Below are positions 15,156-27,042 of a stretch of 64,000 bases of DNA, piece by piece. This DNA is from Lysobacter sp. BMK333-48F3 (GTDB lineage Bacteria; Pseudomonadota; Gammaproteobacteria; Xanthomonadales; Xanthomonadaceae): contig NZ_JAIHOO010000001.1 in assembly GCF_019733395.1 (NCBI RefSeq), positions 248,001 to 312,000 of the forward strand. Reading direction: 5' to 3'. The translations under genes and the position numbers were made by a program. The notes below the pieces were generated by a model that was not told the DNA's origin, searched no databases, and was given only the letters and a program-made list of their open reading frames with translations. Position 1 is the first letter of the stretch. The number at the start of each line of letters is the position of its first letter.

Positions 15156-15533
15156 ATGAGCGCAAGCGCCTGGATCTGGCTCGGCGGCCTGCACAGCCTG
15201 GCCTTCGCCGTCTTCCACATGGCCTTCTGGAAACTGTTCGGCTGGCGCCGAACCCTGCAGACCGCCACCGTCGCCGACCGCGCCATCCTGCAGATCCTCA
15301 ACCTGCGCCTGATCTACGTCCTGCTCGGCATCGCCGCGCTGTGCTTCTTCTACACCGACCAACTGCAGAACACCGCGCTGGGCCGCGCGGTGCTGATCGG
15401 CATGGCCTTGTTCTGGGTGGGGCGGACGGTGGAGCAGTTCGTGTTCCTGCGCATCAACCGGCCGATGGTGCATGCGCTGACTGCGCTGTTCGTGTTGGGA
15501 GCGGCGATTTTTGTTGCGCCTTTGTTCTACTGA
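15156..15533 (+). CDS. small four-helix membrane protein
   Basis: 125 residues, ATG preceded by GGGAGA. Four hydrophobic helices are evident (about 5-25, 43-65, 78-97, 105-124), with FHMAFWKLFGWR after the first. I do not recognise a function. Its importance here is positional: the 3' end of this gene recurs twice more to the right (18853-19128 and about 21897-21989), marking the borders of duplicated segments in the mosaic island. Confidence 0.8.
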   Translation: MSASAWIWLGGLHSLAFAVFHMAFWKLFGWRRTLQTATVADRAILQILNLRLIYVLLGIAALCFFYTDQLQNTALGRAVLIGMALFWVGRTVEQFVFLRINRPMVHALTALFVLGAAIFVAPLFY

Positions 15534-15905
15534 TCGGGGCGCGTCGGCATCCGTTGGAGGAGGATTGGGCTCGGACTGCCTTGCCCTCGCACGTACTGCG
15601 ACTGATTGCTTCTCATCTCCCGAAAAATCAAAGGGGCTCCGGCTCGTCTTTGCTATCGGGGGGCCTGATGAGAAACAAGGCTGACAGTCGTTGCCACGTT
15701 GAACGACGTATTGTCGCCCGCCGGCGAGGCCGGGGCGTGGCTCACGGGGTCTAAGGCCTCCTTTGCAGAGCCCCTTACCCTAGTTAGGACGCACTGACCG
15801 TAGTCATAGGAATTCACCGCCAAGTTCTACCCAAAAGAGGCTCTGCCCCCATTTTTATCTATGAAAGTTGGACGATCACCCTAACCCGTCGCCGACATCT
15901 CTCCA
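15534..15905. other. mosaic spacer with repeat and transposase debris
   Basis: No intact gene. It carries a palindrome-like AAAGGGGCTCCGG motif (about 15628), the 5' fragment of a REP-associated transposase (15663-15830) and another GAGGCTCTG motif at about 15835. The sequence after the membrane-gene stop is shared with the copies at 19129-19250 and 21990-22110. Confidence 0.65.
15663..15830 (-). pseudogene. 5' remnant of a REP-associated tyrosine transposase
   Basis: Read on the minus strand, this segment aligns base for base with the upstream region and first codons of the fragment at 19855-20105: the same CTAACTAGGGTAAGGG...AAAGGAGGCC leader, then a coding start resembling the CVQRGNDRQPCF motif of these transposases, but with substitutions and a frame change in the first ten codons. 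It ends where the Rhs-type palindrome begins. The HUH domain is absent. Confidence 0.7.
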
Positions 15906-16250
15906 TTACTGGGTTTCCAGCTTCTCAGCGACCGCCTGCATCAGTTGCTTTACCACCCCCAGATCTTTCGGATGTTGGGCCAGGTACATCTCAGCGGCAT
16001 CATTGAGCAAACGAAAGAAATGCTCGCCAGACACAACCAGCTCTTCGGAAAAAATATAAAGCTTAACCCCCTCAAATTTTCCCTCGTCGAAACCAACCTC
16101 TCCCGGAAACTCGCAAACCGCATCATTGAACCCCACCCCGACGCCCCGGGAAAACGCCCTTAAAGTTTCGACGAAATCCCTACTTGGCATAGCATTGAAA
16201 AAGGCCTGCACGGGAAACATGTCCGCGTCAAGAACCAGAGGGAAATCCAT
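15906..16250 (-). CDS. putative CdiI-like immunity protein
   Basis: 114 residues; the ATG at 16250 has AAGGA six bases upstream, so it is preferred to the upstream in-frame start. The sequence is acidic and compact, with GVGVGFNDAVCEFPGEV followed by DEGKFEGVKLYIFSEELVVSGEHFF, a pattern I associate from memory with ribonuclease-toxin immunity proteins of the CdiI type. That assignment is tentative. It is AT-richer than chromosomal genes and lies in an island of orphan immunity-like genes with no intact cognate toxin. Confidence 0.6.
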   Translation of the reverse strand: MDFPLVLDADMFPVQAFFNAMPSRDFVETLRAFSRGVGVGFNDAVCEFPGEVGFDEGKFEGVKLYIFSEELVVSGEHFFRLLNDAAEMYLAQHPKDLGVVKQLMQAVAEKLETQ

Positions 16251-16404
16251 AAAAGTCCTTGATTCAAAATCTGGGAAGAAAGAAAGCAACGCGCCTTGAT
16301 TATAGAGATACCCATGAAGCGCAAGCCACTAGGCGCCGCTCCCGCCCTTCCGCGATTCAAGGGCCCGAGTGAGTGCGCTTCAATTGTAGCTTGATAAAAC
16401 CGGG

Positions 16405-16620
16405 CACAGCTACTTTTCAACGACTGCGGATAAAGTGGCATTCGCGGTCGGCGCGCAGACCTTACTGTGTAAAGTGACTGAGCTGCGGCGCCATTGCATG
16501 CTGAAACTTCGGACCGCCCATGCTCGCTGCTGCGACGGATAGGCTCGAATACATCTTGCTCACTCAGGACTTCTTCGAACAGTCCGCGCTATGCGGCTGT
16601 TCGCATCTCGGCTTGCCGCC
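16405..16620. repeat. dispersed island repeat, copy 1
   Basis: Contains CACAGCTACTTTTCAACG, then TTCGCGGTCGG...CGCAGACC, then GCATGCTGAAACTTCGGAC and TTCGAA motifs. The first part recurs at about 19715-19810 and 21328-21400, the second part at about 18697-18830 and 19805-19870. It marks breakpoints between immunity modules. Confidence 0.65.
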
Positions 16621-16639
16621 CCAGCCCCGCAATGTCGAA

Positions 16640-16835
16640 TCAGTAGGCCGGGTCGACGCCGAGGCAGGTGCCGGAGCCGGACATCTGCTCGTGATACTCG
16701 ACGGCGCGGTTGCCGCGCAGGTCGTAGCCGCTGTACTGCACCTTCAGCTGGATGCCGCGGCAGAAGGTGCGGTTGGTCGCGTTGTCGCCGGCGTCGTAGC
16801 CCAGCAGGCAGGAGTCGCCGCCCCCTCGGCGGCTA
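16640..16835 (-). pseudogene. Rhs/YD-repeat core fragment with early stop
   Basis: The minus strand encodes GGDSCLLGYDAGDNATNRTF, then QLKVQYSGYDLRGNRAVEYH, ending SGTCLGVDPAY and a TGA at 16640-16642. It is clearly homologous to the start of the longer Rhs fragment at 20142-20855, whose matching segment reads GGDSYLLGYDAGGN. Two extra G bases near 16827 shift the frame ahead of it. The YD-type repeat (GYDLRGN) identifies it as the part of an Rhs protein just before a variable toxin tip. Confidence 0.75.
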
Positions 16836-16905
16836 GCAACAGAGCACGGTCAAGAGACCTACCCAGAGGCACTCTGAACCCTTAACTCCGTTTTCGCTTC
16901 TACCC

Positions 16906-17337
16906 CTATCTAGCCAAGACTCGACCACTAATTACAACATCCTCCTCACGCAACAAAATCGACTCCAAACTGGTAATGAACCAGCGAGCATCCGCCGTCA
17001 TTTTATCCTCAGCAAAGAAAATTCCGAGGACATCGAAGACAAAGAAAGCGCGAACCATCTCCATGCGAGAACTTTCAGGCAATCGTAAAAACTCATAAAG
17101 CGTGGGATAGCCGACCGCCCCCTCATAGGGCGGGTTAAACTTACCGACAATCACATCATCGCGAACCAGCTCATCTATGCACTCATTATAAATCGAATCA
17201 AATACATCAACAAAGCACCCCTCCGTTAAATGCAATTCATAACTGCATGCGCCTTGCGGATCTGAATCAAAATGAGCCAACTCCGAAAACGTAACGGAAG
17301 AAAAACTTTCCTGCACTCCATCAACAACCAACTTCAT
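16906..17337 (-). CDS. putative immunity protein of an orphan Rhs module
   Basis: 143 residues. The ATG at 17337 overlaps by four bases (ATGA) the stop of the short upstream frame that carries an Rhs toxin tail, the arrangement expected for a toxin/immunity pair. The product is acidic, with no signal peptide or membrane helix, consistent with a cytosolic immunity protein. It is intact and has a decayed relative at 23835-24238: matching parts include YNECIDELVRDD against YDACVDGVARDD and YPTLYEFLRLPESSR against YPSLHGLLDLPQSAR. The toxin it neutralises is not identifiable. Confidence 0.7.
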   Translation of the reverse strand: MKLVVDGVQESFSSVTFSELAHFDSDPQGACSYELHLTEGCFVDVFDSIYNECIDELVRDDVIVGKFNPPYEGAVGYPTLYEFLRLPESSRMEMVRAFFVFDVLGIFFAEDKMTADARWFITSLESILLREEDVVISGRVLAR

Positions 17338-17531
17338 CCCCCCCCAGGGGGAATTAGAACAACACGCCCACCCTTCGTGACTGTGAGCGGCCCAGAAGGA
17401 ACATAAGGCTCACCAGTACGCAAACCGCCCCCGGCCCTGGCACCAGATCCCTGAAAAAATCCTCCCGGATTTATAATACTCTGGCGTCGTAGCCCAGCAG
17501 GCAGGAGTCGCCGCCCTCGGCGGTCAGCATA
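17334..17531 (-). pseudogene. Rhs core end plus toxin-tail remnant
   Basis: From about 17531 the minus strand repeats the Rhs start (ATGCTGACCGCCGAGGGCGG, then GDSCLLGYDA) and stops almost at once in that frame. A second frame continues SIINPGGFFQGSGARAGGG and ends VVLIPPGGG at a TGA that overlaps the immunity start codon. It looks like the two ends of an Rhs toxin gene joined after loss of the middle. Confidence 0.6.
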
Positions 17532-17590
17532 GAGCTGGATCAAAGGCTTTTCACTGTCGAAAATTCACTCCGACCTCGTTTATTTACTAT
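17510..17590. repeat. Rhs-border palindrome, copy 1
   Basis: CTTTTCACTGTCGAAAA at about 17547-17563 is a CTTTTC/GAAAA palindrome adjoining CACTCCGACC; the same junction, GATCAGAGGCTTTTCACTGTCGAAAAG, precedes the Rhs fragment at 20863-20900. GGGGCTCTGACCCC at 17596-17609 is a neighbouring palindrome found repeatedly in the island (also 20123-20137). Confidence 0.65.
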
Positions 17591-17668
17591 CGGAAAGGGG
17601 CTCTGACCCCGTTTTTGGCCGATGGCGCTCCGGCCCCGCTCCTAATGCACATTGACCCCATTGTTATT

Positions 17669-18186
17669 TCAAAGAAGATCTTTCCACTCCGGGATGATGT
17701 CATCCCGATGCAACGACTGAAATTTTCGCAGCGCCGCCCTATACGTTTCGTCAGCACACCCGTCAACATCGGCATGCATCAGATTATATAGCTTCAACGG
17801 CCTATCGCGCTCGGGAACGCACTGATACAAAGCCTCTATATTGCCCTCATCCACAAAACGATCCATGAGGCCATAAATATAGAGAGGAGAGTCTTCAAAA
17901 ACTTTCGCGGCGACGGCATCGGCCAGATCAAAAAAATAGCGGATCTATCTGACACATATCGCGCGACCATTCCCCTACCCAGATCATTCAACTCATCAGA
18001 GTATTTATCAAAATTAACAGGCAGCTCAGGGTACCGCTTGAAAGCATCGATAATTACATCAACAACCCATTGATTATTGCTCCCGACCGCCACCTCCGAA
18101 ACAGAAAAACCCGAGCTCAATTTTGAAAATATCTCCCGAACCAACGGGACGGTAGCCAGTAACGACTCTCCATAGTGCCTTTGCAT
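17669..18186 (-). pseudogene. putative immunity gene with a homopolymer frameshift
   Basis: Two frames join into one protein. The first begins at the ATG at 18186 (a GTG at 18195 is also possible) and encodes MQRHYGESLLATVPLVREIF onward to DRSAIF; the second encodes FDLADAVAAKVFEDSPLYIYG and continues through LMDRFVDEGNIEALYQC to EWKDLL. They meet at a run of seven T (17930-17936). One more T would give an uninterrupted product of about 172 residues. Either a recent loss, a switchable tract, or a sequencing error. Function is unknown; immunity is inferred from the setting. Confidence 0.65.
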
Positions 18187-18284
18187 AAATATCACCGCCC
18201 AAACCCCTTCATTACACCACTGTCTACGCGCATCTGAAAAAGCTCAGCAGGGCAGTCCATTCCAACCCCATTGCTAAGAAAGCC

Positions 18285-18566
18285 TTACCTATCCAAGACC
18301 CCAATCAGCTGGGCCACGAAATCACTTCTATCAACCGCCCCAAGGCTCGAGTAGGAAATTACCGCGCCGTCCCTTTTGTATACATAGATCATTTCCTCAA
18401 TCACAGCCACTACTTGTTTCGGAATCGAATCCAGCAACGCTGGATCCTTGTACCTGATGATGCATTCGCCGACTCGAAATGCCACAACATCAACAGGAAA
18501 CAACCCTTGACTCCATTTCAGAACCAGCCCCTCCAACTCACAAACCTCACCTTCAGGAGTTCCCAT
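18285..18566 (-). CDS. small putative immunity protein
   Basis: 93 residues; the ATG at 18566 follows GGTGAG. The protein is a small acidic alpha/beta-looking product (CIIRYKDPALLDSIPKQVVAV, then IEEMIYVYKRDGAVISYSSLG) with no signal or membrane segment. Upstream, another frame reads RTADGRLRVPVPGWGSAGYW and may be a leftover toxin tail. Not recognised as a named family. Confidence 0.55.
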   Translation of the reverse strand: MGTPEGEVCELEGLVLKWSQGLFPVDVVAFRVGECIIRYKDPALLDSIPKQVVAVIEEMIYVYKRDGAVISYSSLGAVDRSDFVAQLIGVLDR

Positions 18567-18696
18567 AGAAAAATCTCACCATCTATCCAGTATCCCGCAC
18601 TGCCCCAACCTGGCACAGGAACCCTCAACCTACCATCTGCTGTGCGACTGGCAATATTGCGCCCGAACGAAACGGGCTTGGCACCCGATGGGCATT

Positions 18697-18830
18697 GCAT
18701 GCTGAATTTCGAACTGCCCGATACTCACTACTGCTACAGGCAGGTTCGGATCTCGCCTGTACCCTGCTCACTCGGTACTTCGTCGAACACCCCGCGATAT
18801 GCGGCTGCGCGCTACTCCGACAAACGGGTC
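18697..18830. repeat. dispersed island repeat, copy 2 (second part only)
   Basis: Starts GCATTGCATGCTGAA and carries CTCACT...ACTTCGTCGAACA...GCGATATGCGGCTG, aligning with 16488-16610. It joins directly to the second copy of the membrane-gene 3' end at about 18853. Confidence 0.65.
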
Positions 18831-18852
18831 TGATCTCGCTTTGCTGTCCCCT

Positions 18853-19128
18853 GCAGACCGCCGCCGTCGCCGACCGCGCCATCCTGCAGATCCTCAATCT
18901 GCGCCTGATCTACGTCCTGCTCGGCATCGCCGCGCTGTACTTCTTCCACACCGACCAACTGCAGAACACCGCGCTGGGCCGTGCGGCGCTGATTGGCATG
19001 GCCTTGTTCTGGGTGGGGCGGACGGTGGAGCAGTTCGTGTTCCTGCGCATCAACCGACCGATGGTGCATGCGCTGACCGCGCTGTTCGTGTTGGGAGCGG
19101 CGATTTTTTCTGCGCCTTTGTGCTATTG
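18853..19128 (+). pseudogene. second copy of the 3' end of the membrane protein gene
   Basis: Nearly identical to 15257-15533 (codons 34-125), including the stop codon and about 70 bases of downstream sequence. The 5' third with its start codon and ribosome-binding site is missing, so it is a truncated duplicate. The few differences include LYFFHTDQ for LCFFYTDQ and FSAPLCY for FVAPLFY. Confidence 0.85.
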
Positions 19129-19311
19129 ATCGGAGCGCGTCGGCACCCGTTGGTGGAGGATCGGCCTCGGACTGCCTTGCCCTTCCCGTTGACGGTGACT
19201 GACTGCCACAGGATCAGCAGAATCAAAAAAGAGGCTCTGATCTCGTTACCCCGAGCGTTTCTCCGCGCCCTGAGCATGGCTCGCGGCAACGTCGCCCGAA
19301 GCCAGGTGCAA

Positions 19312-19689
19312 CTACCCTACAGATTCGTACAGACCACCATCCATGTCGGCGATATCGCTATCCATCTCGACCCGAACGGCGGCAGTACTCGAATCGATCA
19401 GAGCGCTGAACAAGACGATAGGACAGACGCCAGAGCGATGAATGATGATTCTCTTCTGACCGCTGCAGACATCTATCTTCGCGAGTACTTTTCGCCCATT
19501 ACGCATCTCCCAAAATTCGCCCTCCTTCAAGCGAACTCTCGGGTTCACCGTTAGCTCAATCAGCCAAGAACCCGAGGCCCTACGGCCGCCGATGGTTACG
19601 CATCGTTCGACCCACTCAGGCAGATGCTCTCTTGGGTGGAGCGCAAAGAACGACTCAAGCGCGAACTGTTTAGCAGCTGAGAAATCCAT
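19312..19689 (-). CDS. putative immunity protein
   Basis: 125 residues; the ATG at 19689 has GGAGGG seven bases upstream, a strong site that decides it over an in-frame start at 19701. Contains LPEWVERCVTIGGRRASGSW, EGEFWEMRNGRKVLAKIDVC and a C-terminal DSDIADMDGG. Cytosolic by sequence. I do not recognise the family; position behind Rhs and transposase remnants suggests an immunity gene. Confidence 0.6.
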   Translation of the reverse strand: MDFSAAKQFALESFFALHPREHLPEWVERCVTIGGRRASGSWLIELTVNPRVRLKEGEFWEMRNGRKVLAKIDVCSGQKRIIIHRSGVCPIVLFSALIDSSTAAVRVEMDSDIADMDGGLYESVG

Positions 19690-19708
19690 TAAACCCTCCA
19701 AATAAAAA

Positions 19709-19870
19709 TCGGATCACAGCTACCTTCAACGGCTACGGATAGAACGCACTTTCGTGGCCGGTGCACAGGCCCCACCTGTGCAAATCGGCCGAACTGTACC
19801 ACTATCGCATGCTGAAGCTTCGGACTGCACCATTCTCGCTGCTACAGATGGGTTCGAATGCACGTGATCA
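19709..19870. repeat. dispersed island repeat, copy 3 (both parts)
   Basis: CACAGCTACCTTCAACG...TTCGTGGCCGG...GCACAGGCC and GCATGCTGAAGCTTCGGACTGCACC match 16405-16560. The repeat cuts the transposase fragment at about 19855. Confidence 0.65.
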
Positions 19871-20105
19871 GTTATGAGCACATAGGCGTGGACGGCTACG
19901 CCGTACCGTAGCGGCGCTTCACGCAACGCAACGAGGCAGCATGCGTAATAGGCTGACCTGAAGAAACAAGGCTGACGGTCGTTGCCACGTTGAACGACGT
20001 GTTGGGGCACGCCGGCGAGGTCGGGACGTGGCTGGCGGAGCATAAGGGCCTCCTTTGTAGAGACCCTTACCCTAGTTAAGGCGCACTGTCCTTAACCATA
20101 GGAAT
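19855..20105 (-). pseudogene. truncated REP-associated tyrosine transposase (RAYT, Y1_Tnp)
   Basis: About 63 codons from 20043 (RQPRPDLAGVPQHVVQRGND, RQPCFF, HAYVLITDHVH) match the N-terminal half of RAYT proteins; the leader CTAACTAGGGTAAGGG...GGAGGCC lies upstream to 20105. The HUH histidines (HVH) survive, but the usual TNHVHLL is altered and the catalytic Tyr half is missing because an island repeat is joined at 19855. RAYTs mobilise REP palindromes, which are abundant elsewhere in this window. Confidence 0.8.
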
Positions 20106-20141
20106 TCGCCGCTCAACTCTATCAAAAAGGGGCTCTGACCC

Positions 20142-20855
20142 CTACAGGGACGTCAGACGGCCGACCAGGTCGTAGCTCAGGGTGTTGGTGGTCGGCTTGT
20201 AATTGCTGTTAGTGCTGACGCCGCTGACGGTCTTTTCCTTGTAGCTCTCCCAGCCCTCGTAGGTGGTGGTGTAGGTGTGCATGTAGCCCGGGGCGTAGGT
20301 GCGGAAGCCCTTCGCCTTGCCGGTGCTGTCGTAGATGCTGTTGCCGGCGGCGTCGACGTACTCGACCCGGCTCTTGAGCGTGTCGAGCACGCTGGTGTCG
20401 TAGGTCTGGCGGTTGTCGGTGTTGTACTGCGACGCCAACGGCACCCAGCCCTCGTAGTTGTCCTTGCGGCGCCAGCTCTCCTGGTAGATCAGTCGGCCGT
20501 CGGCGTCATAGGAATAGTTTTCGGCATCGCTCAGCCAGCCGCTGAAGTCGTAGGTTTCGTACTCCTCGTAGATCTCGCCCGGGCGCGAAGTCCGGGTCCA
20601 GCTGGAACCGGCGGCGAAGTAGCGGCGCGTACCAGTCAGGCGGCTATTGGCGTCGTAGCTGAAGGTGCGGTCGATGCCGAAATAGCCGCCGGCGCCGGAC
20701 AGCTGCTCGTGGTACTCGACGGTGCGGTTGCCGCGCAGGTCGTAACCGCTGTACTGCACCTTCAGCTGGCTGCCGCGGTAGAAGGTGCGGCTGACCGCAT
20801 TGCCGCCGGCGTCATAGCCCAGCAGGTAGGAGTCGCCGCCCTCGGCGGTCAACAT
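20142..20855 (-). pseudogene. Rhs/YD-repeat protein fragment
   Basis: 237 codons open, but only a piece of a normal Rhs protein (over 1,000 residues). It begins MLTAEGGDSYLLGYDAGGN, then has YD-type repeats (GYDLRGN, FSYDANSRLTG, NYSYDADGRLIY, LSYDLVGRLTSL) and ends in a TAG that touches a GGGGTCAGAGCCCC palindrome. The other end starts next to the CTTTTC...GAAAAG junction palindrome. The DPxGL-type cleavage motif and any toxin tip are absent. Shorter copies of its first 20-60 residues are at 16640-16835 and 17510-17531. Confidence 0.8.
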
Positions 20856-20862
20856 AGAGCTG

Positions 20863-20906
20863 GATCAGAGGCTTTTCACTGTCGAAAAGTCACTCTGACC
20901 CGGTCT
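20863..20906. repeat. Rhs-border palindrome, copy 2
   Basis: GATCAGAGGCTTTTCACTGTCGAAAAG and CACTCTGACCCGG, identical in layout to 17540-17572. A degenerate version (GGGTTCAGAGTGCCTCTGGG on the minus strand) adjoins the Rhs piece at 16640-16835. Confidence 0.65.
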
Positions 20907-21047
20907 ATTGGACTCCGCCCGAACCCGAGGTGCGGGTGCAGGTGGAGTCGAGGGCGAAAAGGCTTACCGCCGTTTGCAACAACACCACCGCCCGGCTGTG
21001 CCGGGCGGCGAGTGGACTTTCAGCAGCTGGCGCGAACCGCTAGATCA

Positions 21048-21287
21048 CTATGAAGCCCATTCCAAAACTTCGGGCAAAACTCCCGCCTTCCATTCGCGCG
21101 CAACCTTAATGGCGGCGCGGTTGAAGCAATGAAGCCTTTCATCACCCGGCATTGGTTCAATCAGACTTGCCTCACCTGTCACCTTATCGAAGCTAAGCAC
21201 GCCGCGACGTCCTTGATCGCTCTCAAAAACATAGCGAGCAGACGATTCGCTTTCACCCGTTTTGTTCAGTCGAACATAGAAGGCCAT
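21048..21287 (-). CDS. small putative immunity protein
   Basis: 79 residues from the ATG at 21287 (the open frame continues upstream through repeat sequence). The protein reads like a family of compact proteins that I recall next to CDI/Rhs modules: MAFYVRLNKTGESESSARY, FESDQGRRGVLSFDKVTGE, then AAIKVAREWKAGVLPE. A name cannot be given. The ribosome-binding site is weak. Confidence 0.55.
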   Translation of the reverse strand: MAFYVRLNKTGESESSARYVFESDQGRRGVLSFDKVTGEASLIEPMPGDERLHCFNRAAIKVAREWKAGVLPEVLEWAS

Positions 21288-21327
21288 GGTCTTAATCCGG
21301 AGTCCAAGTGCGTCGAAAATCGGGGTC

Positions 21328-21400
21328 AGAGCCACTTTTAAACATCTACAGCTTAAACTGCCTTTCGTGGCCGATGCACCAGCCACACCTCCGACACCAT
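21328..21400. repeat. dispersed island repeat, copy 4 (first part only)
   Basis: GGGGTCAGAGCCACTTTTAAACATCTACAGC, then CTTTCGTGGCCGATGCACC, aligned with 16405-16470 and 19715-19770. Confidence 0.5.
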
Positions 21401-21409
21401 ATTTTCCAA

Positions 21410-21886
21410 TCATCTAGTGAGCTTACTCTCGAACCATCCACTCGCAAGAAGCTTTTCTCTGTAGACAGCATCCGCCAAGAAATCTGTTTTTAGGTCCAGG
21501 GAGAGAACCGCATCCAAATACTCTTTTGGCGGCGAATAGCCATGCGCCTCAATGTAATGAATGACAGCAACTGGAGATGAGTAAATTCGGCCACTCCCAG
21601 GAATCCAAATTTCAGCACCGGGGAGATAACTATCATTGCATTTGATGTACAGCGAACCACATTCTGGACAGCTCGGCGGAGCTCGACTTGGCTCGACTAG
21701 CGCTTTTAGCGGGCCGTCAGAGCAGGCTATTCGCTTAAGCTTCTCTGTAAATTCCGACGGCACCTCGCCAGTTGGCACGGGCCCACGAACATCTAGCCAG
21801 CCGATGCATACAACATCATCAAATTTGAAATGGCCGAGCATGTGCCCGTAAGGGACGAGATCTTCGTATGCGCAAATCAAATTCAT
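21410..21886 (-). CDS. DUF7919-like hypothetical protein, possible immunity protein
   Basis: 158 residues. The N-terminal part has YEDLVPYGHMLGHFKFDDVV and CIGWLDVRGPVPTGEVPSEF, a pattern I associate with the DUF7919 family; a CPECGS zinc-type motif (about 76-81) and SSPVAVIHYIEAHGYSPPKEY follow. No signal or membrane segment. The ATG at 21886 lies just past GGTTGAG. The role is not established; the context suggests protection against a lost toxin. Confidence 0.6.
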   Translation of the reverse strand: MNLICAYEDLVPYGHMLGHFKFDDVVCIGWLDVRGPVPTGEVPSEFTEKLKRIACSDGPLKALVEPSRAPPSCPECGSLYIKCNDSYLPGAEIWIPGSGRIYSSPVAVIHYIEAHGYSPPKEYLDAVLSLDLKTDFLADAVYREKLLASGWFESKLTR

Positions 21887-21896
21887 CTCAACCTTC

Positions 21897-22075
21897 GTGT
21901 TCCTGCGGATCAGCCGACCGATGGTGCATGCGCTGACTGCGCTGTTCGTGTTGGGGGCGGCGATTTTTTCTGCGCCTTTGTTCTATTGATCGGAGCGCGC
22001 CGGCGCCCATTGGTAGCGCATTGGACTCGGATTGCTGTGCCCTTACCCGTTTACGGCGACTGGTCGATTCTCACC
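21897..22075 (+). pseudogene. third copy of the 3' end of the membrane protein gene
   Basis: Matches codons 96-125 of the gene at 15156-15533 (FLRINRPMVHALTALFVLGA, with local changes), its stop and about 80 bases beyond. Together with the copy at 18853 it fixes the edges of two roughly 3.0-3.6 kb repeated segments. Confidence 0.75.
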
Positions 22076-22114
22076 TCTAGCAGAACCCAAAGGAACTCCG
22101 CGCCCCTATCCTGC

Positions 22115-22840
22115 TTACAGCACCACAAGCCGATCGAGGACAGAGTCCTTCGGCACCGTCATCAACCGGCTCAGCTCCTCCAACAAACGCTCAAAAGCGA
22201 TGTCGTTGGACTCGATCACCAAACCATCCGGCGCCGGGACAATCTCGTAATGCTGGAAGAATCGTTTGGCGGTGTACTCGATCAAGCGCCGAGACTCTTT
22301 TTCGGTCAAGACCGAAAAAGGGACTTTGAACCTAACCTGATGCGGCGGCACGAAGATCATATCCCGCAGATCGAGATGCTCGATTCTCGCGCCACACTCG
22401 GTACACAATTCCGGACTCGCGGAGTCCATCAGACACACGCAACATGCGAAAGACTCGCCACTACCGGCATTCGCGGCTCGTTTCTTGATGCCCGCCTCAA
22501 CCGGCTCTTGCAAAGCAAAAACCTCGGCACCCCTGAAAACCCTAAAATCCGACACCTCGCGCAGAGCAAGCCCACCTTCGCCGGCATACAGGCTCCCCGT
22601 AATCAACGCCGGGTCACAGTAAAGAAACTGCCCACCCACATAGCAAGGAACACTCTCCAGAAGACGATCCAGAATATCTTGATCTGAAATGGTCAGTTGT
22701 GCCCCGCCCCATCGATCGACGCACAAGGCGACGCCGCCGTGTTTCACGGCGAGAAGGCCTCTAATGGAAACCCGAGCATCAAGGAATCGATCGGAGTCCA
22801 GAAGCAGGTCTTCGAGCTTGATCTCGTGAGCGTCCATCAT
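22115..22840 (-). CDS. hypothetical protein with a Cys4 zinc-like motif
   Basis: 241 residues. The N-terminal half (LEDLLLDSDRFLDARVSIRG, LLAVKHGGVALCVDR) could be an OB-like domain, and residues about 130-155 include CCVC...CTEC, a probable zinc ribbon. The C-terminal half is helical. Not recognised; the gene may be an immunity or accessory gene, as it sits in the same minus-strand array. The start could be 22840 or the adjacent ATG at 22837. Confidence 0.55.
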   Translation of the reverse strand: MMDAHEIKLEDLLLDSDRFLDARVSIRGLLAVKHGGVALCVDRWGGAQLTISDQDILDRLLESVPCYVGGQFLYCDPALITGSLYAGEGGLALREVSDFRVFRGAEVFALQEPVEAGIKKRAANAGSGESFACCVCLMDSASPELCTECGARIEHLDLRDMIFVPPHQVRFKVPFSVLTEKESRRLIEYTAKRFFQHYEIVPAPDGLVIESNDIAFERLLEELSRLMTVPKDSVLDRLVVL

Positions 22841-23098
22841 CCGTCCAGTCAGCCGTCAAGAAATCAGGGCGCGTTTCGCCCTCTGAAGGCACAACGGCAT
22901 CCACGGTCGGCTCCACCGAGATCCCATAGCCTTGGGAGCGACGCCCAATCTGTGTGACACGTTCTTTGGCACTGCCAGTTCTGCCCGCCGCGCACCGATT
23001 GTTACGCCTTTTTCCAGAGTCCTTGGCGGACTCGAACTCGACCGCCATCTACCGGATGGCTCGCAGCAAAGAGGCAGCCCTCGGTCCGCCGCTTGAGC

Positions 23099-23533
23099 TC
23101 AGTAGATGAAGTCCCCCGAGCAGACCGGACAGACGGGCGGCGAATGAAGTATGTCGTGCACCGCGCAATGACAGGCTGAATTGTTCGGGTCGCAATCGGA
23201 TTCAGTGACAACCACCGTCTCGTCGATTATCCAGGCGGGCATTTGGGACAACAGCTGGGGCAACTGACTCGCGCCGCGATAGAAATAGAGTCTGACGTAA
23301 GCTCCAGCTTCGACAGCCGACCTAATCGCGCGATAGGCTCCCATCTTGCCAATGGAGCACTGTGCCGAAAGCCAGTCTGCGAGCGATACCGCGGATCCTT
23401 TTTTCACCTTCGCCCAGACATCGAAAGCCGCCGGATCATGGATCACCTCGCCCTCATCCGCAACGTGTTGCTGCGCCTCAACGGTGCGGCCGTGCTGACG
23501 CGGCAGCGACATCCAGGCTTTGATCGCGCCCAT
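23099..23533 (-). CDS. hypothetical protein
   Basis: 144 residues; the ATG at 23533 has GAAGGGGATA upstream. It contains VWAKVKKGSAVSLADWLSAQ, YRAIRSAVEAGAYVRLYFYR and a C-terminal CPVCSGDF pair of cysteines that may bind metal. Upstream the frame stays open for about 40 bases (EYTQEIVALLKGIFAMG), and a seven-C tract at 23589-23595 separates it from another open frame (23600-23813, MALRSGVIEVEVEGSAEPCP), so a longer, frameshifted gene is possible. Function unknown. Confidence 0.5.
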   Translation of the reverse strand: MGAIKAWMSLPRQHGRTVEAQQHVADEGEVIHDPAAFDVWAKVKKGSAVSLADWLSAQCSIGKMGAYRAIRSAVEAGAYVRLYFYRGASQLPQLLSQMPAWIIDETVVVTESDCDPNNSACHCAVHDILHSPPVCPVCSGDFIY

Positions 23534-23834
23534 CGCGAATATCCCCTTCAGAAGCGCGACAATTTCTTGAGTGTACTCGCCGGGGAAGCCCCCCCGCCGC
23601 TGGAGTCGGAATAGGCCACAGCACCTTTAGATAGCCCGCGCATTCGGCGATACCAACCCCGCCGCCAAAGCCTCTCATCCGATCGCGCATTGTATAGCAC
23701 CATTTGCGAACCGATTTTCCTCCGGACGGCGTGCCCTGGCCCCCCATCTTGTCGGGACAGGGTTCGGCCGATCCCTCGACTTCGACCTCGATCACTCCAC
23801 TACGCAGCGCCATGGGGCCGAGGCCGACGAGCGT

Positions 23835-24238
23835 TCAGCGCACCTCCAAGCCGCGCCCATCCTCGGTCAAGTAACGACGGAAGATGTCGTGCATGAGATA
23901 GGCGTCGACCACCCGCTTCCTGGCGCTCTGCGGCAGATCAAGCAGCCCATGCAGCGATGGGTAGGCGACAGCCCAGAGATAGAGCGAAGGGGCTCGAATT
24001 GCCCAGTCGTCGCATCGTCGCGCGCCACCCCGTCCACGCATGCGTCGTAAACAGCCCGGAGCCTGCCGACGAATTCGTCCGCGGCCAGTCGCCAGAGCGC
24101 GCGATCCCGAACGCCGGCCTTGCCCGGCTCAACTCGGAAAGCGGCTGTCGCCACAAGGCGCGTTGCGGCAACTCGCCGGCGTTCGCCGCCCGCCAGTCGG
24201 CTGGCTTTTGCCTGCGAGCCGGCTACCGCCGGTGCCAT
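23835..24238 (-). pseudogene. decayed paralogue of the immunity gene at 16906-17337
   Basis: One frame gives ADEFVGRLRAVYDACVDGVA and RDDATTGQFEPLR, and a second frame continues SLYLWAVAYPSLHGLLDLPQ, SARKRVVDAYLMHDIF. Joined, they align with the intact protein over about 70 residues (YDACVDGVARDD with YNECIDELVRDD). An N-terminal piece (QPLSELSR, compare TFSELAHF) is in a third frame. At least two frameshifts and a shortened C-terminus mark it as dead. Confidence 0.65.
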
Positions 24239-24241
24239 GGC

Positions 24242-24643
24242 TCACCCGGCAAACGGCGCGGCAGCGAAGAAAGTGTCTGCGACCTTATAAGCGCAGGCGG
24301 TTTCGTACATGAAAGAAAGCACGAAATCGCAATCGGCTTGTCGCCGCAATAGTCCTATCAAGCCGTCGATTTCCCGATACGACTGCGTCAGGCGGGCATT
24401 GTGCAAGGTAAACAGGACATAGGCGGACAGCAGCCAGCCTTCATCGCGGAACATGTCGGCCGATACCGCCGATCTGCAGGGGTAGAACGAAGCAAGCATG
24501 AGCGTTTCAGGAAAGCGCGTGCTGAAGGCTCCATCCGGCCCGCCTCGCCGGATCGCGCCCTGCGGACCGACCGACAGCAGTGCCGCCCTGACCATCTCGG
24601 CACCTGCGGCGCCGACTATTTCCAGCGCATAGAAATTCGACAC
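24242..24643 (-). CDS. hypothetical protein, possible immunity protein
   Basis: 133 residues if the GTG at 24643 is used; it has GGGAGA seven bases upstream, which the ATG at 24694 lacks. The product has a patterned core, SNFYALEIVGAAGAEMVRAA, RFPETLMLASFYPCRSAVSA and LHNARLTQSYREIDGLIGLL. No signal or membrane helix. Not recognised. It ends four bases before the decayed paralogue begins. Confidence 0.5.
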   Translation of the reverse strand: MSNFYALEIVGAAGAEMVRAALLSVGPQGAIRRGGPDGAFSTRFPETLMLASFYPCRSAVSADMFRDEGWLLSAYVLFTLHNARLTQSYREIDGLIGLLRRQADCDFVLSFMYETACAYKVADTFFAAAPFAG

Positions 24644-24724
24644 GGACTGTTCTCCCGGACATCGCCGCTGATCATAGCCCCGGCGCGACAGCATGGCCGT
24701 TCCGGCGGAGCGACCCGGCTTTCA

Positions 24725-25743
24725 TCAGGCACCGGGGCCGCGCCTGGGCGAAGTGACGAATCTCCGAGGGCGATAGAGCCGCTGCGCCATTTCCAACGCC
24801 GCAGCGATATCGGCCTCGGCCAGTTCGCCGCGAAGCGACACCCGGCCTTCATCCAGACAGAAAACGGCTGCGATCGCCGGATCCGATCGCAACAGCGCAA
24901 CTGCCGATTCGCGCCCCGACCCGAACTCACCGACACGCATCGTCGTCATGCGCGGGAAACGCGCACGCGACTTCAGCCAAGACAGAAGCGTAATACAGAC
25001 GAACCGCAAATCCTGGCGTCCGACAAGCGCCTCGGCCGGCGCCAACATCGCGTCCGTCGCGCCCGAAGCGACATATTCCGCCATGGCGATCACCAGAGTT
25101 TGGGGAAACCGATCTTTGGAGCCACCGATCACTCGACACCCCATATCCCATGGCCGCAGGAGCACCTCGTATGCGCCTGAGGACCTCGCTCGCTTCGGCC
25201 AGTTCCTCGACGGCGTGCTCTCTTTCGCGGCCCGCGTTGCGCAACGGCCTTCGGCGTAGCCCGGCCCACGCTTCGGCCCCGATGTATTGCATCGTGCCGC
25301 GCGCCGCTCGTCGAAAATCGATAGACGACGTCGCAACGGTACGACGAGACCTTCAACACGTGGGGGAGCGGCGTGAGAATACGCATCGCGTACCAGTTGA
25401 AATCCACCAGGTTCGTGGACCCGATGGATCGCCGGTGGATGCACAGGCTGACGAACATCGTATTACCGGCTTCGAAGACGAAGTTTCCGCCGATTCCGCT
25501 TTCCTCCCATACCAGCGATACGCCGACCCACTCGCCGGCCGCGGCCTTTTGCTTCGCCAGCGATTCGACCGTCATCTCGCCCGTGCGCCAGTCGAAATCC
25601 TCTTTGTCGCCCAGCGGCAGGTAAAGCTGCGCGGGCTCGAGCCGCCAACCCGCATCGATCAAGACAGGCAGCGCGACCCAGGCCAGGCCCTGCGCCGGCG
25701 CGGCGTCGACAAAATCCATGTCGATCGAGGCCGATATCGACAT
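24725..25743 (-). pseudogene. one or two frameshifted genes of unknown function
   Basis: The ATG at 25743 (AGGGGAACG upstream) opens a good frame, ISASIDMDFVDAAPAQGLAW through VVYRF, until about 25300. After that, coding-like sequence is found in a second frame (AEAWAGLRRRPLRNAGRERE, EVLRRIRG, to about 25160) and then a third (GAYEVLLRPWDMGCRVIGGS and on to the stop at 24725). Either two adjacent genes with one frameshift in the second or a single gene with two. Not recognised. Confidence 0.4.
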
Positions 25744-25878
25744 TCGTTCCCCTAAACCGTCTTGGTCGAAGCTGTCGCACATTCTATTGGAACAAGCAGC
25801 GATCCAGCCTCTCTGAACAAACCGGCCGTTCGGCCGCACTCAAGAGTCGTCGCCAATGGAAGCAGGCCGACCAGTCGG

Positions 25879-27042
25879 TCATGCCGGTTCGGCTTGGACC
25901 GGCGACGGCCCGGCCGCCAGCAGCCCCACCCCCACCAGCACCGACAGCCCGACGATGGCCGCCGCGGCATAGCCCAGCGCGCCGACCCCGATCGCGTCGA
26001 TGACCCGGCCGCCGACGATGGCGCCGACGCCGATGCCGAGGTTGGCGCCGGAGATGTTGAGCGAGGCGGCGAAGGCCGGGGCTTCGGGGGCCGACTTCAT
26101 TACCCGCACATGGCTGACCGGGAACAGCGCGGCCTGAGTCACGCCCCACAGCGCCAGGGTCGCGGCGAACAGCGGCAGCGACTGGATCGAGGGCACCACC
26201 AGCACCAGGCCCAACGCCATCGGCGCGCTGAAGAGCAGCGACACCGCCAGCGGGTGGCGGTCGACGTAGCGGCCGCCGAGGCTGTTGCCGATCAGGCCGA
26301 CCGCGCCGAAGGCCATCAGCGCCCAGCCCACCACCTGGCCGTCGAAGCCGGCCAGGCGCTCGAACAGGTCGGCCAGGTAGGTGTAGGCGGTGAACATGCC
26401 GGTGAACAGGATCACCGACAGCAGCACGTGGCCGCCGACGCGCGGGTCGCGCAGCACCCGGAACTGTTCGCGCAGGCGCGGCTGCGGCTTGTCGTTGCGG
26501 TGGTCGGGCAGGAACGCGAACAGCATCGCCGCCTTGGCCAGCGAGGCGATCGCCAGGGCGACGAAGGCCGCGCGCCAGCCGAAGGCATCGGCGATCAGGG
26601 TGCCGGTGGGTACCCCGATCACGGTGGCGCAGATCACCCCGAACGAGATCACCGAGATCGCCCGGCCGGCGCGCTCCTGCCCGGCCAGGTCGACCGCGGT
26701 CTCGCTGGCCAGGGCCCAGAACACCGGCACGCCCAGCGCCGGAATCAACCGCGCCAGCGCCATCACGCCCAGGCTGGGGGCCATCGCCGCGATCGCGTTG
26801 GACACGGCGAACAGCAGCAGCACCACGATGAACAAGCGCTTGCGTTCGAAGCGCGAGAAATAGGCGGTCAGGAACGGGCCGCTGGCGGCGACCGCGAAGG
26901 CGAACAAGGTCACCAGCAGGCCGGCCTGGGACACGCTGACCCCGAGGTCGCGGGCCAGCGGCGGCAGCAGGCCCACCAGGATGAATTCGGTGGTCAGCAC
27001 GGTGAATCCGGCGGCCGACAGCAGCAACAGGGGCAATAGCAC
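25879..27042 (-). CDS. MFS drug-efflux-type transporter
   Basis: 387 residues, about 12 transmembrane helices. Signatures of the DHA1 (12-TM proton antiporter) family are visible: TTEFILVGLLPPLARDLGVS in the first helix and loop, RLIPALGVPVF in helix 4, and GVPTGTLIADAFGWRAAF in helix 5 (motif C-like). Likely an inner-membrane exporter of sugars, amino-acid derivatives or drugs, but the substrate is not deducible. It forms the right-hand edge of normal chromosome after the mosaic island. Confidence 0.92.
   Translation of the reverse strand: MLLPLLLLSAAGFTVLTTEFILVGLLPPLARDLGVSVSQAGLLVTLFAFAVAASGPFLTAYFSRFERKRLFIVVLLLFAVSNAIAAMAPSLGVMALARLIPALGVPVFWALASETAVDLAGQERAGRAISVISFGVICATVIGVPTGTLIADAFGWRAAFVALAIASLAKAAMLFAFLPDHRNDKPQPRLREQFRVLRDPRVGGHVLLSVILFTGMFTAYTYLADLFERLAGFDGQVVGWALMAFGAVGLIGNSLGGRYVDRHPLAVSLLFSAPMALGLVLVVPSIQSLPLFAATLALWGVTQAALFPVSHVRVMKSAPEAPAFAASLNISGANLGIGVGAIVGGRVIDAIGVGALGYAAAAIVGLSVLVGVGLLAAGPSPVQAEPA

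Follow-up and report, generated by a model that had tools for sequence, protein, structure and literature searches.

Orphan immunity arrays as such are already well known. In Salmonella and Escherichia coli, orphan Rhs modules have a core-tip-immunity layout, and the H-repeat of E. coli Rhs elements, a transposase-type gene that forms part of Rhs loci, belongs to a transposase class other than the Y1 RAYT transposases. Here we analysed a window of 64,000 nucleotides (the whole stretch of DNA under study; contig NZ_JAIHOO010000001.1, C1:248001-312000 of the 5.23 Mb genome) of Lysobacter sp. BMK333-48F3, in which an island of small genes is probably a pile-up of orphan immunity genes that outlasted the Rhs gene of their locus. 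Like the H-repeat, the transposase debris of the island belongs to an Rhs locus, but it is a Y1 RAYT. New here are the absence of the Rhs gene, the apparent growth scars and the ends of a transposase element associated with Rhs tails. A first-pass annotation of the window had already described a degraded island of Rhs immunity modules but overlooked two features that bear on its origin, the repeats of the neighbour-gene end and the borders at RAYT elements.

In the type VI secretion system immunity arrays of Vibrio cholerae, the old immunity genes of displaced effectors stay downstream, recombination is reported without specific integration sites in the part of the paper used here, and a mechanism with an anchor and an illegitimate end has been proposed (Kirchberger 2017, PMC5361080). 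The island resembles these arrays in that putative old immunity genes are retained downstream; unlike in Vibrio, its Rhs gene is gone, scars of the neighbour gene lie at the presumed joins, and ends of the RAYT element are interspersed in the array. Scars such as the two neighbour-gene copies described below are the trace that the Vibrio model would leave. In Serratia marcescens Db10, a gene downstream of Rhs that is the cognate gene in another strain was shown to be protective (PMC10539506). The island likewise has putative orphan Rhs immunity genes, whereas in Serratia two extra genes stand behind a working Rhs gene, and that text has no word beginning with 'transpos-'. The orphan toxin/immunity modules of Salmonella and E. 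coli lie beside an Rhs gene (PMC3967940, PMC3150448), while the island has neither a recognised toxin tip nor a parent Rhs gene. Finally, Pseudomonas RAYT genes are flanked by REP (repetitive extragenic palindromic) sequences, with one orthologue of a major clade in 9 of 10 genomes (PMC3390384). As there, a Y1-type transposase gene has inverted repeated ends nearby; in contrast to that account, from whose text 'Rhs' is absent, the copies described here cluster in Rhs tails. No report linking RAYT to Rhs was found in a literature search whose coverage left out most subscription journals.

Site and Rhs remnants of the island

The site of the island was compared among 19 other genomes of the genus, all of which (19/19) have a match to the gene on its left, F1 (15156..15533, plus strand), an intact gene of 125 amino acids (aa) with no Pfam family above cut-off. 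The right flank is a gene named by inspection as MFS transporter-like (25879..27042, minus strand), which has orthologues at the site in relatives. The two closest relatives by neighbour-gene identity, G019 and G009, have an empty site, with a gap of 76 bp between the matched parts of the two flanking genes; this gap is also short in several others. Homology to the empty site (loci L090 and L094) stops at 15552 and restarts at 25909, and the island borders were thus set at 15553 and 25908, an insert of 10.36 kb.

Other relatives carry Rhs genes at this very site. Open giant Rhs open reading frames (ORFs) of 4,988 and 4,971 aa were found in G001 and G016, and an Rhs gene in several pieces, masked letters included, in G003. 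All three read towards the neighbour gene, in the same orientation as the island. In G018, an ORF of 1,595 aa, Rhs-type by inspection, is followed by small genes, of which one is a relative of the island gene i1 and two are SUKH-like by inspection. Together with the Rhs core fragments inside the insert, these genes identify the location as an Rhs locus. The fetched stretch had no match to the MFS-like gene in seven genomes (G010-G013, G015, G014 and G002). In G010-G013 and G015 the next gene directly follows the neighbour gene. The large inserts of G014 and G002 were considered as Rhs loci and rejected, being GC-rich with longest ORFs that lack Rhs repeats; G014 still has a 23% relative of a tail gene of the Rhs locus L087 adjoining the neighbour gene. 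Separately, at the island's site in G008 (L097), the 731 bp gap between the two flanking genes has no Rhs gene but contains, at 1958-2308, a relative (27%) of the gene that comes first after the Rhs gene of L087.

Within the island, three Rhs core fragments lie on the minus strand, recognised by matches to the giant Rhs proteins of relatives or by DNA. The largest, R2 (20142..20909), is 60-66% identical to the giant Rhs cores of L112-L116 (protein match 20142-20855). R3b (16651..16853) is 88% identical to 20669-20848 and matches giant Rhs proteins over 16634-16822, and R3a (17483..17584) is 91% identical in DNA to 20808-20909. The longest Rhs piece in the island measures 237 aa, so the earlier description of Rhs core fragments without an intact Rhs gene stands.

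Neighbour-gene copies and proposed growth of the island

Two partial copies of the F1 3'-end lie inside the island on the plus strand. F2 (18849..19206) starts at codon 33 (33-125) and runs about 76 bp past the stop (93% identity in self-BLAST), and F3 (21894..22100) starts at codon 92 (92-125) and likewise includes sequence past the stop (82-89%). Identity over shared coding columns is 95.3% between F2 and F1 and 94.8% between F3 and F2, while the 19 other species reach at most 91.4% to F1 and 88.8% to F2; F1, F2 and F3 group together against all of them. About 70-100 bp past the stop are common to F1-F3, and the empty site lacks this sequence beyond about 20 bp. Because their identity exceeds that to the 19 species, and because they share post-stop sequence absent from the empty site, F2 and F3 are, judged from these alignments, derived from the locus of their own lineage at a time when the insertion already existed there. 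The copies are cut at different codons, neither of them at the ends of the transposase element, and they split the island in the order i13-i8, F3, i7-i5, F2, i4-i1, F1.

This arrangement fits homology-facilitated illegitimate recombination that stacked three tails. At each round, an incoming toxin tip, accompanied by its immunity gene, would probably stem from a close conspecific, given that the copies of the neighbour-gene end are own-lineage. At its upstream end it would recombine through the shared Rhs core, and at its downstream end it would join at a chance point within the neighbour-gene copy that came with it. The resident tip and immunity gene would thereby be shoved downstream, with a ragged neighbour 3'-end copy staying as a scar; two such scars would account for three stacked tails in the island. 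Toxin parts of the older tips would then decay while several immunity ORFs remained open, and we infer that selection could keep such genes for protection, their products presumably binding and blocking toxins delivered by rival strains. Growth of orphan immunity arrays has been modelled before and is hard to observe directly; the ragged neighbour copies offer a readable scar of it.

Displacement of this kind is also suggested by Rhs loci of relatives. The first ORF after the Rhs stop at 17 Rhs loci was searched against the other loci and the window, and 8 of these 17 genes recurred at another locus, with 23-98% identity. The closest recurrences were the L089 gene in L126 (98%), the L112 gene in L116 (83%) and the L115 and L119 genes in L145 (74% and 67%), followed by L116 in L118 (51%), L117 in L121 (29%) and L087 in L097 (27%) and L095 (23%). 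The first gene of L139 recurs in the window (30%, E 7e-17) and at four other loci, and a ninth match, of L125 to itself, falls within one tail. Since genes at the cognate position recur as orphans at other loci, these matches point to displacement.

Small genes and their Rhs-linked relatives

The first-pass annotation had described small, mostly acidic, AT-richer minus-strand genes, and their composition agrees. GC content is 0.574 in the insert versus 0.699 in the remaining window, and the isoelectric point lies at 4.3-6.6 in 9 of 11 measured ORFs and near 9 in two (i3a and i13). The highest 19-residue mean hydropathy among measured ORFs is 1.65, in i5, and the proteins are likely cytosolic. 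In 15553-22840, 8 minus-strand ORFs reach 110 aa or more; 300 dinucleotide shuffles gave a mean of 2.5, and none had as many as 8. One of these eight is an Rhs fragment and another belongs to the broken i3, and 6 ORFs of this size also occur on the plus strand of the interval, which makes ORF length alone weak evidence.

Relatives were sought in fifteen further Rhs loci of relatives and at the orthologous sites, and, for i4, i5, i8 and i9, in 199 whole genomes (E 1e-3 for i4). All the small genes that follow lie on the minus strand, and their immunity function is putative throughout. The clearest case is i9 (23099..23533), an orphan immunity candidate present in 6 of 199 genomes (the five non-self genomes are G004, G037, G001, G018 and G008); among the further Rhs loci, L125 holds a relative. 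The relative in G004 (L139; E 1e-17) has its ATG 29 bp downstream of the stop codon that ends an Rhs ORF at least 3,283 aa long. This Rhs toxin gene and its neighbour form a pair open to assay. The G037 relative is a broken copy adjoining ORFs that are Rhs-like by inspection.

Rhs tails likewise hold relatives of i1, i5 and i8. On profile matches, i1 (15906..16289) is a CdiI_4-type immunity protein (PF18624, E 2.1e-8; 34.9 bits, above the Pfam gathering cut-off of 25.9). It also matches PDB chain 5hkq_I, a CdiI protein (E 4.3e-4), scores 32.1 bits against the NCBIfam equivalog immun_CdiI, below the curated cut-off of 60, and has relatives in the L096, L116 and L118 tails. A tie between i1 and an EndoU toxin was considered and dropped: 1 of 54 tail ORFs matched EndoU, and a scan of ten chosen ORFs failed to place it. 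The orphan immunity candidate i5 (19312..19701) occurs in 2 of 199 genomes, its own and that with the Rhs tail L118 (18865-19233, 33-34% identity). The C-terminal half of the orphan i8 (22115..22840) is related to a gene in the L113 Rhs tail (28%, E 5e-18), its sole non-self relative in the 199 genomes, and i8 had no match among plasmids; as a side observation, i8 (22115-22840) looks fused from two parts, with a relative found only for its C-half. As a control, each of the island proteins and pieces was shuffled 100 times, and no shuffled sequence matched the tail set at E 1e-3. In the 54 tail ORFs scanned, which were hand-picked (52 from a list of 73 and two others), the families recorded were SUKH_6 (5), SMI1_KNR4 (5), SUKH_5 (3), Sel1 (2), CdiI_4 (1), EndoU (1) and, marginally, M90 peptidase (1).

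For the remaining genes, the immunity role proposed earlier follows mainly from position. The acidic orphan i2 (16906..17337) has no Pfam family and no plasmid match, and i6 (21048..21413) is a small orphan with 79 aa from an inner ATG; both were found in no genome but their own among 227 genomes of the family, so that an immunity role for them stays positional. The next gene, i7 (21410..21886), is a DUF7919 protein (PF25535, E 1.9e-25) whose family was found in its own genome alone among 398 genomes of the phylum. It was considered as an Rhs-linked family and rejected, as its two relatives, both from distant phyla (Leptospirales and Planctomycetia metagenome-assembled genomes), had no Rhs in the ORFs read (12.3 and 5.3 kb). 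There was no credible PDB match for i7 or for the i9 profile. The small acidic ORF i4 (18285..18566) has a weak likeness to the first gene after the Rhs stop in L121 (blastp 24%, E 2e-4 in a set of 183 sequences). Of the rest, i3 (17669..18195) comprises two overlapping frames (17836-18195 and 17669-17866), apparently frameshifted by inspection, with no family above cut-off; i10 (23796..24238) is a broken i2 paralogue, whose part 23796-23981 matches i2 at 32% (E 1.1e-4) with one stop; and i11-i13 (24242..25839) are small ORFs without a family at E 1, degraded by inspection. On inspection, i3, i10, i12 and i13 all appear frameshifted or broken.

The family searches proposed by the first-pass annotation gave CdiI_4 for i1 and DUF7919 for i7; the other scanned island ORFs had no family above cut-off. 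For i5, i8 and i9, which are candidates on the strength of their relatives, its expectation of new immunity families is plausible. Homologues consistently away from Rhs would have spoken against its view. None were seen for i5 and i8, each with one Rhs-tail relative in 199 genomes; 2 of 5 i9 relatives are not near Rhs, and the two i7 relatives have none in the ORFs read, so that the outcome is mixed. Its immunity reservoir left by replaced Rhs tips is supported in part, by the relatives of i1, i5, i8 and i9 and by the Rhs genes at the orthologous site; for i2, i6 and i7 it has position, and for i4 a weak match.

The RAYT element and competing readings

The transposase debris seen earlier was confirmed as two RAYT pieces on the minus strand. 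T2 (19726..20043) is 56-58% identical to the N-terminal part of the RAYT in the L114 tail (tblastn 20043-19858, E 1.6e-16). T2 by itself gave no Y1 match in the Pfam scan, and its assignment to PF01797 comes through this intact relative, which has a Y1_Tnp domain (PF01797, 51.1 bits). T3b (15664..15850) is the 5' end of a second RAYT copy, 83% identical to 19957-20142 (tblastn 15749-15672, E 0.002). The L114 RAYT was then searched in nine chosen genomes. Of the 27 stretches that it matched, with several to a gene, 19 fall in the Rhs tails L112, L113, L114, L116 and L118, 3 at L145 in G018, 1 in the island and 4 elsewhere. In all, 23 of 27 stretches, or 7 of 11 by place, lie in Rhs tails or orphan-immunity islands, a count that is no random sample because the genomes were chosen mostly for holding such Rhs loci. 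The four elsewhere are weak (30-37%), and the three of these places that were fetched have neither Rhs-like ORFs nor the element core.

A second Rhs-less island is suggested by L145 (8.2-17.3 kb; G018 C1:2653-2662k). No Rhs was seen there in 20 kb, yet the locus has copies of RAYT alongside orphan relatives of two genes from cognate positions, one of which occurs twice.

In relatives, inverted copies of a 23-base element lie near the RAYT gene. A weight matrix for this element, AAACAGGGGTCAGAGTGCACTTT, trained on seven of the ten positive loci, found 72 copies at 11 bits, all of them in tails or L145 and spread over 10 of 54 sources, and none in 43 loci (737 kb) or in the window. With up to 6 mismatches allowed, the full 23-base element still has no site in the window; what the window contains are diverged variants picked up by shorter patterns. 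One of these patterns, GGGGTCAGAGYSNCTTT, matches 5 places in the window when one mismatch is allowed, every one of them inside the island (expected 0.00). They lie at 15834..15850 (minus strand, 1 mismatch), 17594..17610 (minus, 10 bp from the R3a border), 20126..20142 (minus, at the R2/T2 border), 20886..20902 (minus, 1 mismatch, at the R2 start) and 21322..21338 (plus, before the inner i6 start and away from repeat borders). Four of the five lie no more than 20 bp from a repeat border (P ~0.009 under random placement), a test that is not independent because the borders were drawn from repeats that themselves contain the element. On these placements, module borders tend to coincide with RAYT element ends.

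These data raise the possibility, which we consider doubtful, that the RAYT elements are what moves or recombines the toxin-immunity modules, which would then be defined by the element ends. The concentration of stretches in five Rhs tails, a Rhs-less immunity island and the present island favours this, as does the placement of element ends near repeat borders. However, most of the nine genomes were selected for such Rhs loci, two of them (G007 and G008) have no RAYT match, the F2 and F3 ends carry no element, and AT-rich tails may merely be safe landing ground. Somewhat less likely still is the wider idea that this Y1 (HUH-type) transposase element, almost confined to Rhs tails of the genus, serves as a diversification device whose ends move, cut or join toxin-immunity modules, the island being its fossil record. 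Either way, an element concentrated in Rhs tails is a candidate mechanism and a marker for islands without an Rhs gene.

For the stacking of displaced immunity genes at this locus, several observations weigh on the other side. The ragged neighbour-gene copies are absent from the orthologous site in all 19 relatives, so that the scar evidence comes from one genome. No toxin domain was found among the scanned window ORFs (Pfam; gaps between ORFs lay outside the scan), which leaves the toxin-tail remnants of the first-pass annotation unconfirmed; the loss of toxin parts is a presumed step. No Rhs-linked relative was found for i2, i6 or i7 in the searches above, and i4 was not recovered at E 1e-3 in the 199 whole genomes. 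The G001 relative of i9 lies antisense about 6 kb behind an Rhs gene, and no Rhs was seen in 20 kb around the G018 and G008 relatives (2 of 5 non-self). Finally, own-lineage copies of the neighbour gene could also arise by tandem duplication inside the locus.

Such duplication together with deletion, by unequal crossing over at RAYT or element copies and with no serial import of tips, would explain why F1-F3 are own-lineage; the repeated element and RAYT pieces offer possible recombination sites, and one cassette gene is present twice in L145. We nevertheless regard it as unlikely, since F2 and F3 begin at different codons away from element ends, and the genes adjoining the F copies differ: in BLASTP, neither i5 and i8 nor i1 and i5 show meaningful similarity. 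Another reading, in which the small genes belong to a mobile element or a defence island as unrelated AT-rich cargo and confer no immunity, is highly improbable, for although i2, i3, i6 and i11-i13 have no family above cut-off or Rhs-linked relative at E 1e-3, Rhs fragments are interleaved among the small genes, i1, i5, i8 and i9 have Rhs-tail relatives, and none of 10 proteins matched a PADLOC defence family at E 0.01.

Outside the island, the genome carries further Rhs genes. A DNA search of the whole genome with the island returned itself alone, and blastn of eight stretches of its own Rhs loci against the island gave no match. Genes with Rhs repeats lie on C1 near 62k, 185k, 389k, 2257k, 3108k, 3144k, 3154k, 3157k and 3369k; their DNA is unrelated to that of the island core. 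In the relatives' loci L087, L113 and L126, inverted pairs of the GGGGTCAGAG element form long palindromes between tail genes, which may be terminators or transposon ends.

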